DNA from: Synechococcus sp. UW105
GTDB taxonomy: Bacteria; Cyanobacteriota; Cyanobacteriia; PCC-6307; Cyanobiaceae
Assembly (NCBI RefSeq): GCF_900473935.1
Contig: NZ_UCNN01000017.1
Span: 1-64,000, forward strand
Direction of reading: 5' to 3'
Length of the DNA: 64,000 nucleotides
The notes beneath the pieces were generated by a model. The model saw only the letters and a program-made list of their open reading frames with translations, searched no databases and was not told where the DNA came from. The position numbers and the translations under genes are program-made. The first letter of the stretch is position 1. The number at the start of each line of letters is the position of its first letter. Shown here piece after piece: positions 9,835-43,440 of this stretch.

Positions 9835-10134
9835 TCAATAGAGCTCTTCTTCAGCGTGGGTCTTGATGGTGCAATCTGACGTGGGATACGCCACACAGGT
9901 CAGAACGAAGCCAGCTTCAATCTGGTCGTCGTCCAGGAAGCTCTGGTCGGACTGGTCGACAGTGCCAGAGGTGATCTTGCCAGCGCAGGTGGAGCAGGCG
10001 CCTGCACGACAGGAATAGGGCAGATCGATGCCCTGCTCTTCAGCGGCGTCGAGGATGTACTGATCGTCGGGCACTTCGATGGTCTTGTTCAGACCTTCGC
10101 TCTCAGCGACCAGAGTGACCTTGTAGGAAGCCAT
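9835..10134 (-). CDS. petF: plant-type [2Fe-2S] ferredoxin
   Basis: Soluble 99-residue ferredoxin that takes electrons from photosystem I and passes them to FNR, nitrite reductase, FTR and others. The start MASYKVTLV is the classic one. Cluster ligands appear in CRAGACSTC (C-x4-C-x2-C) plus the fourth Cys in LTCVAYP, and the C-terminus ends EEELY. Length and motifs match cyanobacterial ferredoxin I. The ATG at 10134 is preferred over an upstream alternative at 10182. It is followed by its own terminator, so it is probably monocistronic. Confidence 0.95.
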
Positions 10135-10273
10135 GGATGGATGGAGTGCGCACTGACCTGAAAAACAGGCATGCAGGACCAAACCCTTCTACATCGGACT
10201 GGGGCACTCTCAGTCTTTTAGGACAAGCTTTCCGGGCAAGGCCAATCAAAGCCCATGCACTGATAAGGCAGGC

Positions 10274-11188
10274 TTATGCAGATTCGACCCTGCTGATCTC
10301 CATCAATCCCCAGCTTCCCTGGGAACGAAGCGCCACAACAGTCCATCCCAGTTCTTCCAGCACGCTGGTGAGCCGCGGAGCCTGTTCTACAAGCAAACCA
10401 CTGAGGAGGCCGCGCCCTCCCGGGGCCAACACCGAGGTGAAATGAGGCGCCAGGGCTTCGATCACAGGCGCCAGGATGTTGCAGAGCAACAGCTGGGATT
10501 GAACACCTGCGTGCATCAGAGCCAATGTCTCGACCGAGCCTTGGCGCACCATCAGATGGTCTTCATCGAGCCCATTCAGACTGGCGTTATCCCTTGTAGA
10601 GCGTTCGGCGAGAGAATCAGTGTCTGCCGCTAACACCCGTTCGGCGCCTAGGGCCAAGGCCGCCAGCCCAAGGACACCGCTGCCGCATCCGAGATCGGCC
10701 ACCTGCAAGCCCTGAGGGGGAGAGGCTTCCAAGGCCTCGAGGCAAAGCCGAGTGGTGGGATGACTGCCAGTACCAAAAGCGCTGCCTGGATCCATCCGCA
10801 ACACCAGACGATCGGCATGTTCCGGAGGCAGCTCAAGCCAGGCAGGCAGGATCAACAATCGATCTCCGACGGGATCGGCCTGCCAATGCTGTTTCCAGGT
10901 GAGGCTCCAATCCTCATCATCCAGTTGCTTCCATTCCACCCTGGGCAAGCTCAGGCCGAACGTGGTCGCCAACGGCCGAAGACTATCGATCAGCTCTGTG
11001 CGCTGATCTTCAGGCCATTCTGGCTCCGGCAACCAAGCGAAAAGGGTGCGCTGGTGTGGCGTTTCCGGTGCATGCTGCACCGCCACGCGATGCAGCCCAA
11101 GACTCTCCATCTTCCAGAGAAGCGACTCCTCAAGTTCGGGCTGAAGTGGCAGGGAAAAACGCCACCAACGAAGGGAGGTCGATGTCAT
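10274..11188 (-). CDS. prmA: ribosomal protein L11 methyltransferase
   Basis: Cytoplasmic SAM-dependent enzyme that trimethylates ribosomal protein L11. It has 304 residues, the family length. The N-terminal substrate-recognition domain is followed by the Rossmann methyltransferase domain with SAM motif VADLGCGSGVLGLAALALG near residue 165 and the preceding PGSAFGTGSHPTT block, typical of PrmA. It lies 26 bases after serA on the same strand and is probably co-transcribed with it. Confidence 0.92.
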   Translation of the reverse strand: MTSTSLRWWRFSLPLQPELEESLLWKMESLGLHRVAVQHAPETPHQRTLFAWLPEPEWPEDQRTELIDSLRPLATTFGLSLPRVEWKQLDDEDWSLTWKQHWQADPVGDRLLILPAWLELPPEHADRLVLRMDPGSAFGTGSHPTTRLCLEALEASPPQGLQVADLGCGSGVLGLAALALGAERVLAADTDSLAERSTRDNASLNGLDEDHLMVRQGSVETLALMHAGVQSQLLLCNILAPVIEALAPHFTSVLAPGGRGLLSGLLVEQAPRLTSVLEELGWTVVALRSQGSWGLMEISRVESA

Positions 11189-11214
11189 GGCAAAGGAGGT
11201 TGAACAACAAACCG

Positions 11215-12801
11215 TCAGAGGGTGACGGGATGTGCTTCCTGGATGCCGTTGATGGCACTGATGGTGGCCAGCAGGCTCGGTGGGATTGGGTCATCAATGC
11301 TGAGAACCATCACCGCGTCACCTCGGACGATGCGACGTCCCACCTGCATTGAAGCGATATTGACGTTGTGCTCACCCAGAACGGATCCAAGCTGGCCAAT
11401 AATCCCGGGCATGTCGCGATGCCGGGTGAACAACATGTGCCGACTGGGCGGCACATTCACTGGAAATTCATCGATGGTGGTGACACGCAGCTCACCATCG
11501 GCAAACACCGCACCAGTGACACTGTGCCCCCCCTGGGAGCCACGGGTGGTGAGCTGGAGCGAGCCCCCTGCGAAGTCACGACTGGACTCGTCTTTCACCT
11601 CCAGCACGTGGATGCCGCGGGCCTTGGCCTCAAGCAGAGCATTGACGTAGTTGATGCGCTCGCCAAGGGCACTGGAGAGCAGACCTTTAAGAGCAGCCAC
11701 AACCAAGGGCTGGGATGGATACTCCGAGAAGTCACCCTGGAGCCTGACCTCCAGTTCCTCCACCTGCCCCCCGGACAACTGGCTAACAAGGAGGCCCAGT
11801 GTTTCGGCCAACTGCAAATGGGGCTTGAGACGCTCCATGATCTCGGCACTGAGACCGGGGATGTTCACCGCACTGCGTGCCGGAAGACCGAGGAGCACAT
11901 CGCGGATCTGCTCGGCCACGTCGGTGGCGACATTTTCTTGGGCTTCCTCAGTGGACGCACCAAGATGGGGTGTCAGCACCAGACCACGCTCAACGCTGCG
12001 CAGCGGTGAATCAGCCGCGAGTGGTTCAGTCGCAAACACATCCACACCGGCTCCTGCGATCACACCGTTCTCGATCGCCTCGGCCAAGGCACTTTCATCA
12101 ATGATTCCGCCACGGGCACAGTTCACGAGGCGAGCGGTGGATTTCATGCTTCGAAGCAGCTCCGCATTCACCAGGTTTTCGGTGTCTGGGGTTCGCGGGA
12201 TATGCAGCGTCACGTAATCAGCGCTGCTGAACAGATCAGCCAACTGCGTCAGACGCACCTGCATCTGCTGAGCTCGCTCACTGGACACGAAGGGGTCATA
12301 AGCGATCACATCCATGCCCATTGACTTGGCCACCTTCGCCACATGGGAGCCGATCTTGCCGAGACCCACAACGCCGAGCACTTTTTTATAGAGCTCGTTT
12401 CCGACGTACTTTTTCCGATCCCAGGCCCCTTGACGCATCGATGCGTGAGCCTGGGGCACATGGCGAGACAACGAGAGCAGTAACGCCAGGGCATGCTCAG
12501 CTGCAGCGATCGTGTTCCCCTCAGGGGAATTGACCACGAGCACCCCACGCTGGGTCGCGGCCGGCACATCAACGTTGTCAACGCCCACTCCGGCGCGACC
12601 AACGATGCGCAGGCGATCGGCCGCTGCGATCACATCGGCGGTGACCTGCGTGCCCGAGCGAATCATCAGAGCGTCGTACTCGCCAATGATTCCCTTCAGC
12701 TCTTCTGGGCTGAGACCAGTGCGTTGATCAACCTGAGCCACCTGGCTCAGGATGTCTATGCCGGCCTGATCAATGGGATCGGAAACCAGAACTTTTGTCA
12801 T
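11215..12801 (-). CDS. serA: D-3-phosphoglycerate dehydrogenase
   Basis: First enzyme of serine synthesis, oxidising 3-phosphoglycerate with NAD. The 528-residue long form has a substrate domain, a Rossmann domain with VGLGKIGSHVAKVAKSMGM, catalytic Arg/Glu/His regions (NCARGGIIDE, HLGAST), an intervening ASB-type domain and a C-terminal ACT domain (RHRDMPGIIGQLGSVLGE). The ACT domain suggests allosteric control by serine, as in the family. The start is MTKVLVSD at 12801; a TTG codon directly before it is also in frame. Confidence 0.95.
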   Translation of the reverse strand: MTKVLVSDPIDQAGIDILSQVAQVDQRTGLSPEELKGIIGEYDALMIRSGTQVTADVIAAADRLRIVGRAGVGVDNVDVPAATQRGVLVVNSPEGNTIAAAEHALALLLSLSRHVPQAHASMRQGAWDRKKYVGNELYKKVLGVVGLGKIGSHVAKVAKSMGMDVIAYDPFVSSERAQQMQVRLTQLADLFSSADYVTLHIPRTPDTENLVNAELLRSMKSTARLVNCARGGIIDESALAEAIENGVIAGAGVDVFATEPLAADSPLRSVERGLVLTPHLGASTEEAQENVATDVAEQIRDVLLGLPARSAVNIPGLSAEIMERLKPHLQLAETLGLLVSQLSGGQVEELEVRLQGDFSEYPSQPLVVAALKGLLSSALGERINYVNALLEAKARGIHVLEVKDESSRDFAGGSLQLTTRGSQGGHSVTGAVFADGELRVTTIDEFPVNVPPSRHMLFTRHRDMPGIIGQLGSVLGEHNVNIASMQVGRRIVRGDAVMVLSIDDPIPPSLLATISAINGIQEAHPVTL

Positions 12802-12879
12802 CAACCGGCGAAAGACTGCCTCAAACCACTTTAAAGACAGGCCAGCAGGCCAGAATTAAACGCTCTCAGGAAATCACCC

Positions 12880-39609: not shown

Positions 39610-40041
39610 GACGGGGCGCACAGCTGTGCCAACAGCTCATGACCTAGGCAGATAGATCAATCGATAACCCCTAATTCAGAAAAGAGCCGCATATGTTCAA
39701 TGTCAGGGAGCGGCCAAAGGCACAGCACACACAGAATGAACCCTTCATTCCAGCCAAACGCTTCAGCCAAATCCCTCTTTCGAAGACAACACCTTCATCA
39801 GCATCTTGAAGCAGCGAAGCCCCAAAGCTGACGACACAATGAGCTGATTCCAGAGCATCAACGACATCGACAGTGGACCATCAAAAGTGGGAGCATCGAG
39901 AGCCTCTGCCTCATCAACAACAATCACTTGATGCTTATGACTCAGCACTCTAGAGGCCACAATCTGCCGCGAAAACAAAGGCCCACACGCAGAAAAGATG
40001 TTAAATAGAATCCAAAACTTGCTCAGTAGCTGCCAAAACAA
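39610..40041. other. gap without a convincing gene
   Basis: About 430 bases between ald and the YchJ gene. The only long frame is the in-frame continuation of YchJ on the minus strand after its TGA (39763-40041, 92 codons, hydrophobic at its start). It has a TTG directly after the stop but no ribosome binding site or family resemblance; see findings. No terminator was recognised. Confidence 0.4.
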
Positions 40042-40497
40042 TCAGGCATGAACAAGCTCTAACGAAAGAGGTCGTAGATAGAGCCAGTTGCCCTCAATTC
40101 GATCAGCACAGCGTTTGAACAGTGATGCTTCTTTCAAGATTCTGTGCTGCCCAGATTCTTTAAAATCCGCTTCAAAGCGAACACAACCGGTCAGATCGCC
40201 GCTTCCTCCTCCCTCCACCGCTTGGATGCGAAGTTCCAGCCATCGTGTCTGGCGGCAATGCGCGCGAAGGTCTCGCCGCTGGCGCGCCGGCGAATTCTCG
40301 CGATCGAGATGGGTCTTGATCAAGTAATCCACCTCCCCTTTCGCAAAGGCGCTGTAGCGGGAGCGCATCAACTGCTCAGCCGTGTCCGCCATCACCAAAC
40401 CCTGGTGCAAGGGTGCGCAACAAACGGCATAGCTCTTACCACTTCCACAGGGGCATGGAACAGCGCTGTCTTCCGCAACTGAGAATCCTCGTCCCAC
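40042..40497 (-). CDS. YchJ/UPF0225 family protein with SEC-C motif
   Basis: 151 residues. A zinc-binding SEC-C motif CPCGSGKSYAVCC lies at residues 15-27, followed by the YchJ NTF2-like domain (LMRSRYSAFAKGEVDYLIKTH, the family hallmark, and VRFEADFKESG). The start is a GTG at 40497 that comes immediately after the DUF3326 stop codon (no spacer), so translation is coupled. The function of YchJ is not established. Confidence 0.87.
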   Translation of the reverse strand: MGRGFSVAEDSAVPCPCGSGKSYAVCCAPLHQGLVMADTAEQLMRSRYSAFAKGEVDYLIKTHLDRENSPARQRRDLRAHCRQTRWLELRIQAVEGGGSGDLTGCVRFEADFKESGQHRILKEASLFKRCADRIEGNWLYLRPLSLELVHA

Positions 40498-41577
40498 CTA
40501 GAGCAGCTCCTGCAACCCAGAGAGGGGACGCTGAAGAGAGGCTGGGCTGACCCCTTCCCGCAGCGCCAGCACCAGTCCTGCCGCTTCTGCATAGGACGCT
40601 GCAGGTAGCAACTGGGCGTAGGACTTGAGGCCGAGAGCTTGCGCCGTCACCGTCAACAACGACGGATTGGCGACCGTGATCAAAGGGATGTTTTGCTCTA
40701 GGCAAGCGAGCACCGGTTCTCCCCCAAGCGCATCTGCAGGCACCACCACGGCACCCAGATGCTCAACGCTCAGATCCGAACCGTGGGCAGAGGCCTCCGC
40801 AGAGAGCAGAGTTGGGGCCCGGCTCAGCCCCACCAAGACGCAGGCCAAAAAGGTATAACCCAGCTCTTCAGCAGCTGCTCTTGGATCAAGCTCAGGCTCG
40901 AGAGGAAGTGGTGACAAGGCAGGAGCATGGGCACAGGGAATCTGCAGGTGACGCACCAGAAGATGACTGATCACGGCCTCCGCACCGGCAAGAGCATCCA
41001 CACCACTGCCGTGCCGATAGGCCGCCAGCGCCTCACTGTGAGGGTCCTCAGGGAAACGTGTCACAACGGCAATAGCAGTGGCACCAGCCGCCTTGAGCTG
41101 ATCGCCGGCACGCAGCAAGGCATCGGGACGTTCCAGCGTGCCCGAGCTGATACCGCTCTCCCCAAGCTCCAGATGCACCCCCAGGGACACATCACTCGTC
41201 ACCACAGGTCCAATCTCCAGACCAAGGCTGGCGCGACAAGCATCGGCCACTTGCAGGTGCCGATGCCGCAACTCAGGTTCAATGGCCGCATCCAGCAGCA
41301 AGCCAATCCGATGCCCCCGAACTGACCGCAAGCGCCAGTCCCCGACCATGAATCGGTCGATCGCATAGCCCTCCACGTAGTGGATGCGGGGATCACTCCA
41401 GTACAGCGCCGCGCCGTTCATCACGTTGGGATGGGTGATCAGGCAACCACTAGCAGCGGCCAACAGCCGTGCACTAGGGAGCGCATCACCAGCGAAACCA
41501 CCGATCTGACAGCCGATACCAGTGGGAACCAGCAGCAGCGTGGGGAAGGGTGCGGCGCATCGGTCAGGCCCGCTCAT
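40498..41577 (-). CDS. DUF3326 family protein
   Basis: 359 residues matching cyanobacterial DUF3326: LLVPTGIGCQIGGFAGDALPSARLL, ASGCLITHPNVMNGAALYWSD, IHYVEGYAIDRF, then LGLEIGPVVTSD and AGAEAVISHLLVRHLQIPCAHAP. It is soluble, with many strand-helix alternations. No catalytic motif is known. It sits in the middle of a four-gene minus-strand operon: ferredoxin, 70-residue protein, DUF3326, YchJ. Its ATG overlaps the 70-residue gene by 4 bases. Confidence 0.85.
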   Translation of the reverse strand: MSGPDRCAAPFPTLLLVPTGIGCQIGGFAGDALPSARLLAAASGCLITHPNVMNGAALYWSDPRIHYVEGYAIDRFMVGDWRLRSVRGHRIGLLLDAAIEPELRHRHLQVADACRASLGLEIGPVVTSDVSLGVHLELGESGISSGTLERPDALLRAGDQLKAAGATAIAVVTRFPEDPHSEALAAYRHGSGVDALAGAEAVISHLLVRHLQIPCAHAPALSPLPLEPELDPRAAAEELGYTFLACVLVGLSRAPTLLSAEASAHGSDLSVEHLGAVVVPADALGGEPVLACLEQNIPLITVANPSLLTVTAQALGLKSYAQLLPAASYAEAAGLVLALREGVSPASLQRPLSGLQELL

Positions 41578-41786
41578 TGGATCAAGACAGCCTCGACTTG
41601 CAGGGTCAGCACAGCAATGGCATCAGTCGTAGAAGCAGTCGTGCCAGCAGTGCGGTGAACACTGGTGATCGCCCAACGCAAGGGCTCCCCCTCATCGCGG
41701 AGCTGATTCAGAACCCAAGCATGCAAACCGGAAGGTGGAAGGTCTGCCGGGCAGGCCAGCATCAATCGCCGAGAGGCGAGTTTCAC
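41574..41786 (-). CDS. 70-residue protein in ferredoxin/DUF3326 operon
   Basis: 70 residues from a GTG at 41786 that overlaps the ferredoxin stop by 4 bases; its own stop overlaps the DUF3326 ATG by 4 bases. The double overlap makes translation likely. Features: MKLASRRLMLACP, a Trp-containing middle (SGLHAWVLNQLRDEGEPLRWAI) and a hydrophobic beta-like end (AIAVLTLQVEAVLIQ). No family is recognised. Confidence 0.7.
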   Translation of the reverse strand: MKLASRRLMLACPADLPPSGLHAWVLNQLRDEGEPLRWAITSVHRTAGTTASTTDAIAVLTLQVEAVLIQ

Positions 41787-42118
41787 TTCTGATATTGACC
41801 AAATTGCGCTTCATAGAGAGCATCCTCTTGGCCGGCCACAATTTTGAGGTCTGAGCGAGGGAACGAAACACAGAGGAGGGCAAAGCCGTCGTTGCGCAGC
41901 TCCTCCTTCACTCCCATGGCATCGGGCTGATGCACTTCACCCTGCGTGATGCGCGCAGCGCAGGTGGTGCAAACACCAGCACAGCAAGAGCTCGGAATCA
42001 TCACCCCGGCATCCTCTGCCGCTGACAGCACGGTCTGATCTTCAGCACACTGGAAAACCTGCTGCTGACCATCCAGCTCAATGCTGATGGCATAGCTCGT
42101 GCCAGTCGTGTTGCTCAT
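41783..42118 (-). CDS. [2Fe-2S] ferredoxin, divergent type
   Basis: 111-residue plant-type ferredoxin distinct from PetF. Cluster ligands: SCCAGVCTTC (C-x4-C-x2-C) plus Cys in LLCVSFP. It differs from PetF in the loop, in an insert (HQPDAMGVKEELRNDGFA) and in a C-terminal extension QEDALYEAQFGQYQK. It is the first gene of an operon with a 70-residue protein, DUF3326 and YchJ, linked by overlapping stops and starts. It may be the dedicated electron carrier for that operon (inference). Confidence 0.88.
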   Translation of the reverse strand: MSNTTGTSYAISIELDGQQQVFQCAEDQTVLSAAEDAGVMIPSSCCAGVCTTCAARITQGEVHQPDAMGVKEELRNDGFALLCVSFPRSDLKIVAGQEDALYEAQFGQYQK

Positions 42119-42489
42119 CCTTCCAGGAACGCACCAGAAAGTTCATCCTCTCAGGGCGAGGGACGATTGCGACCCTTCTCTTGCATCAGAGCAGTGAGAG
42201 ATGGGCATTGGGATGGCGAGACCAGCCCTACGGACTCAGCCAGGACTCCCCCACAGAGGGCAGCCAACTGTGGTGATCCGAAGGCGCTTGATCTCAGCTG
42301 CGATCAAGCCTGCGTGTGCTGGAGACGAATCCGTGCACGCGCCCTCGGAGCATGACCATCTCCGGCAACGCACAAGACTCCAAAGTGATGATCGAGACAG
42401 GCGCCAGTTCCCGACACTGAAATTCGACAAATAAAAAGCCGGTCCCGTCAGGAACCGGCTGAAGAAAGAGGTGACAATCAATTCAGCGA
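42119..42489. other. intergenic region between ferredoxin and atpG
   Basis: About 370 bases. The right part holds the terminator of the large atp operon. The rest should contain the promoter of the ferredoxin operon (minus strand reads away from it). No other gene or RNA motif was recognised; short open frames on both strands look random. Confidence 0.45.
42433..42460 (-). terminator. Rho-independent terminator of the large atp operon
   Basis: A perfect 7-bp stem (AGCCGGT/ACCGGCT) with a ten-base loop is followed by a T run on the minus strand, 30 bases past the atpG stop. Confidence 0.9.
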
Positions 42490-43440
42490 TTAGCCAGCTG
42501 CTGCGGCACCACCAACCACTTCAAGAATTTCCTGAGTAATGGCGGCCTGACGCGCTTTGTTGTAATCCAGAGTCAGCTCCTTGGCGAGTGCCTTGGCGTT
42601 GTCACTGGCATTGTTCATCGCCGTCATTCGACTGGCCAATTCAGACGCTGCCGATTCCTGCAGAGAGCGCAGAAGCTGGTTCTGGAGGTAAAGGGGCAGC
42701 AAGGCATTCAGCAACTGATCAGGAGTTTGCTCAAACACAATGTCCGAAGGAATCTTCGGTTCAGTGTTGGCTGGTGCTGCACCAGACTCGACAGTGAGGC
42801 GCCCCTCTTTCGTTGTGAGACGGAAAATCTCATCGTCTGGATCCGCAATGTCTTGAGGATCAAGCGGAAGGAGTGTCTGAACAACCGGCTTGCAGCTCAC
42901 CAGGTTGATGAACTTGGTGTAGATAATCTCCACACGATCGGTGCTCCCCGAGAGAAACTCAGCGAACAACTCATTTGCGATTGAGCCGGCTTCCTCAGCG
43001 GTTGGGACCTGCTCAAGACCAGTAAATGTGGCCTGAGTTGGATAGTTGCGGTTCGTGAAATAGGTGATCGCCTTGCGGCCAATCAGAACCACATCAACCT
43101 TAAAACCCTTGGCCTTGAGTTCATTAAAACGCTGTTCGGTGCGCTTAATGATGTTGGTGTTGTAGCCACCGCAGAGACCACGATCGCCGGTGACAGCCAC
43201 AAGAGTGATGGTGTCGACAGCTCGCTGCTCCAGCAGAGGAGCGTCAGCGTCCTCAAAGCGCATTCGTGACTGCAGATTTTCCAGCAGACGAGCGAGTCGA
43301 TCCGCGAATGGACGACTGCGCAACACCTGTTCCTGGGCTCGACGGACCTTTGCCGCCGCCACGAGACGCATGGCCTCAGTGATCTTGCGTGTGTTTTTGA
43401 CCGATTTGATCCGGTCTCTGATCTCCTTGAGATTCGCCAT
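42490..43440 (-). CDS. atpG: ATP synthase subunit gamma
   Basis: 316-residue central shaft of F1. Start [24 protein letters not shown] and the C-terminal [20 protein letters not shown] plus [20 protein letters not shown] are diagnostic. The inserted stretch in the middle (around residues 195-235, ending [11 protein letters not shown]) is a cyanobacterial/plastid gamma feature; I do not see the two regulatory Cys of chloroplast gamma there. It is the last gene of the minus-strand operon and is followed by a terminator. Confidence 0.95.

Follow-up and report, generated by a model that had tools for sequence, protein, structure and literature searches.

P70 and DUF3326 as the favoured core of a ferredoxin-linked gene run in Synechococcus sp. 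UW105

Why should a divergent ferredoxin, a 70-residue protein, a DUF3326 protein and a YchJ-like protein be encoded with no spacing at all between their genes? The question is raised by a minus-strand run at 42118-40042 of the window, i.e. the 64,000-nucleotide stretch of Synechococcus sp. UW105 analysed here (contig NZ_UCNN01000017.1, positions 1 to 64,000). The original prediction was that such tight coupling reflects a shared, possibly redox-dependent role. Open reading frames and domain searches confirm the run with its coordinates: the ferredoxin stop and the start of the 70-residue gene (P70 hereafter) share GTGA at 41786-41783, the P70 stop and the DUF3326 start share ATGA at 41577-41574, and the GTG of YchJ begins at the base after the DUF3326 stop. 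In the view that we favour, the locus would be an operon with translational coupling, and P70 and DUF3326 would make up its functional core. With a probability of roughly 55%, these two would be subunits of one housekeeping activity, to which the ferredoxin (Fed3 below) serves as an accessory electron donor and in which YchJ is a passenger.

Pairing of P70 with DUF3326 across the phylum

Our survey covered 319 genomes of the phylum, 156 from the class of the window and 163 from other classes (class counts are our own tallies). DUF3326 is near-universal in Cyanobacteriota, being present in 315/319 genomes (156/156 in the class and 159/163 elsewhere), and the small protein that accompanies it most steadily has no Pfam model: a Pfam search of P70 gave no family match. 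At E <= 1e-3 P70 was found in 211/319 genomes, including 156/156 of the class, two of these matches reaching only 1.1e-4. Its Arg-Trp motif, R37-W38, is invariant in 65 aligned sequences as well as in an 18-member set.

Gene order was compared in 74 class loci, chosen by us from 68 of 75 sampled genera with some genera taken twice, and in 20 loci from other classes. On the strand of DUF3326, P70 precedes it in 62 of the 74 loci and the ferredoxin does so in 42, all of which also carry P70; in 12 neither is upstream. Since contig ends cut some loci, such absences are upper limits. Of the 66 fetched loci in which a separate P70 adjoins DUF3326, 15 show the 4-base overlap between the two genes, three of the 15 being from other classes, and this recurrence together with the upstream position in 62/74 argues that the arrangement is not due to chance. 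Among 80 named relatives (mostly Synechococcus, Prochlorococcus and Cyanobium) there was a P70 profile match in 76, a ferredoxin in 58 and YchJ in 8. The 22 without ferredoxin comprise 20 titled Prochlorococcus, one uncultured Synechococcaceae (L110) and one end-cut locus (L063). Asked of these neighbourhoods, whether DUF3326 usually goes without its predicted partners, the answer is yes for YchJ, about half for the ferredoxin and no for P70. A DUF3326 gene 70% identical to that of the window, with a Fed3-like ferredoxin upstream, also stands in a record titled Bifidobacterium breve (L086, CALPNT020000002.1), which is probably a mislabelled cyanobacterial bin; plasmids and phages gave no DUF3326 relative at E 1e-3.

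A search for PsaA and PsaB in 21 other-class genomes came out negative for 21/21, while the two class genomes included with them were positive, so we take these 21 to be non-photosynthetic; DUF3326 is present in all of them. A separate P70 adjoins DUF3326 in 4/20 other-class loci, three of them with the 4-base overlap. Moreover, profile comparison indicates that in one other-class family, f30, a P70-like domain is fused to DUF3326. The N-terminal extension of the three proteins concerned (L216, L219, L223) aligns with the P70 profile at an hhalign score of 40.8 (E 2.3e-7, Prob 93.5), while the best of 35 control clusters, L155 at 26.9, itself holds a P70 frame and the best unrelated one reached 17.8.

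The ferredoxin is the less constant member. A Fed3 profile search found no Fed3-class gene in 7/7 genomes of the window's family that have no upstream ferredoxin, and all seven keep the P70-DUF3326 pair; their best matches were 1.8e-29 to 3.3e-34, which is the level reached by PetF and Fed2 in the window genome (1.3e-30 and 3.1e-30). Seven of seven other-class genomes had no match to the profile at 1e-25. These results suggest that P70 and DUF3326 persist together in the absence of Fed3, both in one family and in other classes, which turns a vague redox idea into a simply testable one. Outside the window's family, 19 of the 23 other class genomes without an upstream ferredoxin have a Fed3 match at <= 1.7e-45 elsewhere. 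The remaining four (G129 3.6e-42, G207 4.2e-43, G187 2.1e-38 and G276 2.7e-39) are ambiguous because second-best copies reach 8.9e-41; the second-best copy of G022 (1.9e-38) is Fed2-like in the tree described below. Fed3-like copies are also found elsewhere in G033 and G171, where adjacency is lacking. Judged by such profile matches, most other class genomes retain Fed3 somewhere.

The class of the ferredoxin and the place of YchJ

The window ferredoxin scores 83.2 bits with TIGR02008 (cut-off 81.15). Our tree has 50 plant-type rows, of which eight genomes supply 29 and the other 21 are further DUF3326-linked ones. The window ferredoxin falls into a clade of 29 rows, together with 26 other DUF3326-linked rows and two unlinked ones, whose support of 82/90 is below the tool's star and in which the G191 gene is counted twice. 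The PetF-like clade (100/99) and the Fed2-like clade (97/89) both lie outside; these two labels are ours, given from the tails. The tree thus places the window ferredoxin in the DUF3326-linked (Fed3) class and apart from Fed2/FdC2. We use the name Fed3, as a presumed identity, because a published cluster joins fed3 to DUF3326. The C-terminal tail that had been called unusual is a signature of the class: Y..QFG is invariant in 19/19 aligned DUF3326-linked ferredoxins, and QFG is also present in Fed2-like copies.

Published genetics of fed3 are in conflict. The relevant part of PMC4284462 gives the gene as essential, whereas that of PMC8887894 describes Synechocystis in which fx3 (slr1828) was fully deleted, with photoautotrophic growth like the wild type and impaired photomixotrophic growth.

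The YchJ protein of the window matches PF02810 (SEC-C; 28.5 bits, E 1.4e-6) and PF17775 (YchJ_M-like; 88.9 bits, E 4e-25), both over cut-off, and the solved YchJ 9vxg at 6.4e-18; it stays below the NCBIfam cut-offs for YchJ (NF002449, 89.1 bits versus 141) and YchJ family protein (NF002486, 83.1 versus 120). Its predicted membership in the unit does not survive the comparison of neighbourhoods, as YchJ stands next to DUF3326 in only 3/74 class loci and 8/80 named relatives, and a CPBP/Rce1-like gene (PF02517, assigned by cluster representative) follows DUF3326 on the same strand in 42/74 class loci instead. This gene is downstream of DUF3326 in 0/14 loci of the window's own family. YchJ may have been added to the run in some picocyanobacteria and probably travels on the transcript as a passenger.

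Two subunits and the competing explanations

What kind of activity could such a pair have? The DUF3326 protein fits PF11805 over nearly its full length (487.7 bits versus a cut-off of 25, model positions 2-336 of 337), and its AlphaFold2 model from 53 sequences has a predicted local distance difference score (pLDDT) of 89.5 and a predicted template modelling score (pTM) of 0.88. Foldseek against the PDB gave no match at E <= 1e-3 for this model, and a 34-member profile gave nothing up to E 10 against PDB sequences. The middle domain (residues 87-257) aligns with generic Rossmann-type folds: LacI (Z 11.2), hydantoin racemase (9.8) and lumazine synthase (9.7). Residues invariant in 34 diverse members include P18, G20, G22, G26, G27, A29, G30 and D31, and further N51, N54, Y67, E200, H217 and E237. 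No cysteine is invariant or nearly so in this set, and electrons from Fed3 would therefore need a bound cofactor or another partner. The literature searched yielded no function for DUF3326; a potato gene annotated with it is mentioned once in PMC13294368.

Likeness to the Asp/Glu/hydantoin racemase superfamily (PF01177) deserves a comment. The middle domain lies on 2eq5 with Z 9.8 over 133 residues at 4.1 A, but LacI and ribose-binding folds match as well or better, and PF01177 is touched by 1/34 DUF3326 members (E 0.03). In profile tests against two hydantoin racemases DUF3326 scored 28.2, with 14 columns aligned; it scored 19.4 with glutamate racemases and 21.0 with all racemases, the best of 35 controls being 20.8. 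As positive controls, racemases compared with one another gave 37.4 (140 columns, Prob 69) and CobT against CobT 24.3 (Prob 5). From these comparisons the racemase link is at most a hint. A relationship to CobT was left without support (12.7-13.5 versus the same best control of 20.8). In one small other-class genome (G003:C1:47902-49564) a PF01177, glutamate-racemase-like gene lies some 200 bases from DUF3326, in convergent orientation.

P70 is modelled by AlphaFold2 (65 sequences, pLDDT 89.8) as strand-helix-strand-strand, with the motif Trp near the start of the second strand. We think that P70 might dock on the N-terminal side of DUF3326 as a small subunit, and that the two would form a housekeeping enzyme or assembly factor predating the split of the photosynthetic class from its photosystem-less relatives. 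Fed3 would have been added in the photosynthetic class as an electron donor, serving either a cofactor bound in the complex or an enzyme that acts with it. It would be useful rather than required, since some lineages without Fed3 keep the pair.

Several observations weigh against this picture. The fusion comprises three sequences, with weak single scores of 3.2e-5, 4.5e-4 and 0.11 in the three-sequence search; the extension of L216 has no Arg-Trp motif, and a DUF3326 extension in another family, f37, was not significant against the P70 profile (E 0.58). P70 was found in only 55/163 other-class genomes. Within the class, P70 and DUF3326 are apart in 12/74 loci (G171 being counted here on a weak P70 match of 1.1e-4), and Fed3 is upstream in only 42/74. 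Twelve genomes of two other-class families, f31 and f38, were picked because they have a P70 match; in 11/11 of those with both genes, P70 and DUF3326 are on different contigs or are separated by at least 19 kb, and the twelfth, G126, has P70 with DUF3326 not found. In seven of these 12 (L268-L271, L273, L276 and L277) P70 comes directly after glmS (TIGR01135), the P70-like gene starting at the glmS stop or no more than about 10 bases from it; metK is next in L277. Finally, no activity can be assigned, the P70 model, like that of DUF3326, having no Foldseek match at E <= 1e-3.

Two observations on these families stand on their own. The neighbourhood of glmS is an unexplained second home for P70 in small other-class genomes; in L272 glmS is about 370 bases upstream of P70, and in L266 P70 precedes ahcY. 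In genus g95, G047, G078 and G126 are the only f31 genomes of the survey without a DUF3326 match, and a fourth member, G303, has DUF3326.

The separations lend themselves to another explanation, namely that P70, DUF3326 and Fed3 are needed at the same time and share expression with no physical contact. Such a reading accommodates the 12/74 class loci and 11/11 f31/f38 genomes in which the first two lie apart, as well as the frequent position of P70 after glmS. It accounts poorly for the overlap recurring in 15/66 loci across classes and for the fusion in f30, and we consider it rather unlikely. It is on conserved adjacency, recurrent overlap and fusion that the functional coupling originally predicted holds up for P70 and DUF3326, and for these reasons we keep to the two-subunit core as the favoured reading. 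A bolder form of it, which we put forward tentatively and regard as unlikely as a whole, would see in P70-DUF3326 a core enzyme of Cyanobacteriota that has so far escaped notice, made of two subunits and predating the separation of the photosystem-less classes. A private Fed3 would have been attached to it later so that photosynthetic electrons drive or regulate it, the Arg-Trp subunit carrying the cofactor through which a cysteine-free enzyme could use these electrons.

The stronger claim, that all four proteins make up one redox-dependent unit with the ferredoxin as obligatory electron source and YchJ as a functional member, appears improbable. The gene overlaps in the window speak for it, as do the ferredoxin upstream in 42/74 class loci and present in 58/80 relatives, the impaired photomixotrophic growth of the slr1828 deletion described in that part of PMC8887894, and two genomes (L278 and L283) in which Fed3 and P70 are kept together away from DUF3326. 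Because of these two genomes P70 seems to act as a hinge between the other members of the cluster; together with the 42/74 loci they support the ferredoxin link of the original prediction within the class. A shared redox role is not demonstrated: DUF3326 has no invariant cysteine, it persists in 21/21 genomes without PsaA/PsaB, the pair stays where Fed3 was not found, and YchJ is a rare neighbour.

A different role for P70 was considered in view of its predicted shape. Dodecins have the order strand-helix-strand-strand and a flavin-stacking Trp near the start of the second strand, and the P70 model resembles them in both respects. Foldseek lists dodecins for P70 (3onr, TMq 0.65/TMt 0.67, E 0.2-0.5; 2cz8, 0.60/0.63, E 0.51), and PF07311 dodecins were found in none of 146/146 phylum genomes searched, two of 14 control genomes having one. 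However, the topology is generic, since in a second structural look Rpb7-type RNA-polymerase domains scored higher than dodecins (Z 6.8 versus 5.4). By sequence the dodecin relationship was rejected: the P70 profile scored 12-14 against ten dodecins, within the range of unrelated controls (best 20.3 in 116 control comparisons, setting aside a top value of 124.7, which came from the P70-bearing frame of L200). Against PDB sequences the P70 profile stayed at chance level (best 0.38). That P70 is a dodecin-like binder of flavin or another aromatic ligand, passing or storing a cofactor between Fed3 and DUF3326, is thus, for want of a significant sequence or fold score, very improbable.

The locus in the window and its relation to known systems

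The features of the locus are collected in Table 1. The hairpin between atpG and the ferredoxin gene is followed by T's and has z -4.5, with 0/200 shuffles equally stable, and it probably sets the four-gene unit apart from the atp genes. It should be noted that the whole terminator scan found 2 against a shuffle mean of 3.1, i.e. no excess, and that the same scan of the locus found no sigma-70-like promoter. Gene atpG is a neighbour in 19/74 class loci. On the other side, a 92-codon TTG frame after YchJ (39763-40041, minus strand) has no family match over cut-off and is probably not a gene.

Table 1. Features of the Fed3-P70-DUF3326-YchJ locus, in window coordinates
Feature	Position	Strand	Evidence
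Fed3-class plant-type [2Fe-2S] ferredoxin, 111 aa, ATG start, tail EDALYEAQFGQYQK	41783..42118	-	Fer2 2.8e-18
P70, 70 aa, GTG start, undescribed family, R37-W38 motif	41574..41786	-	alignments, AlphaFold2
DUF3326 protein, 359 aa, ATG start, predicted Rossmann-like middle domain	40498..41577	-	PF11805 2.1e-146
YchJ/UPF0225-like protein (SEC-C + NTF2-like), 151 aa, GTG start, lineage-restricted neighbour	40042..40497	-	Pfam
Intrinsic-terminator-like hairpin between atpG and ferredoxin gene	42437..42460	-	-18.7 kcal/mol
atpG (ATP synthase gamma subunit), upstream context	42490..43440	-	PF00231 1.6e-97

The window also contains a canonical PetF ferredoxin behind prmA (TIGR00406) and serA (TIGR01327), in the region 9835-12804 of the minus strand, an order that corresponds to the 'cluster b' arrangement of PMC4284462.

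Among better-known ferredoxins, Fed2/FdC2 (Synechocystis sll1382, Arabidopsis FdC2, barley Viridis-k) makes up the separate clade mentioned above (97/89), and most Fed2-like copies have, unlike the Fed3 class, a longer tail that ends in GLPLDE or a like sequence. One such Fed2-like copy is present in the window genome as well (G000:C2). FdC2 has a role in the chlorophyll cyclase according to the pertinent text of PMC8408499, where the barley authors also treat SynFed3 as an exception among the Synechocystis ferredoxins related to the canonical ones. The class placement of Fed3 warns against carrying this role over, and it should not be transferred.

The association of a ferredoxin with DUF3326 is not new, since the order fed3 - DUF650 - DUF3326 was published in 2014 as the conserved 'cluster d' (Cassier-Chauvat and Chauvat, PMC4284462); the section concerned lists it for Nostoc/Anabaena strains, Synechococcus elongatus 7942, marine Synechococcus and some Prochlorococcus. 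By its position the middle gene would be P70, the DUF650 label being unconfirmed: no such Pfam match was obtained for P70 or its relatives up to E 10. We presume that DUF650 has since been renamed by Pfam. The cluster d section of PMC4284462 contains no fusion, no presence outside the class, no pair lacking Fed3 and no CPBP neighbour, and in the literature searched we did not find P70 as a phylum-wide family, the DUF3326 fusion or the persistence of the pair without Fed3. Like cluster d, the locus in the window has a ferredoxin distinct from fed1/fed2, a small hypothetical gene and DUF3326 on one strand; it differs in having YchJ, which is absent from the text of PMC4284462, and is a variant of the known cluster with YchJ added.

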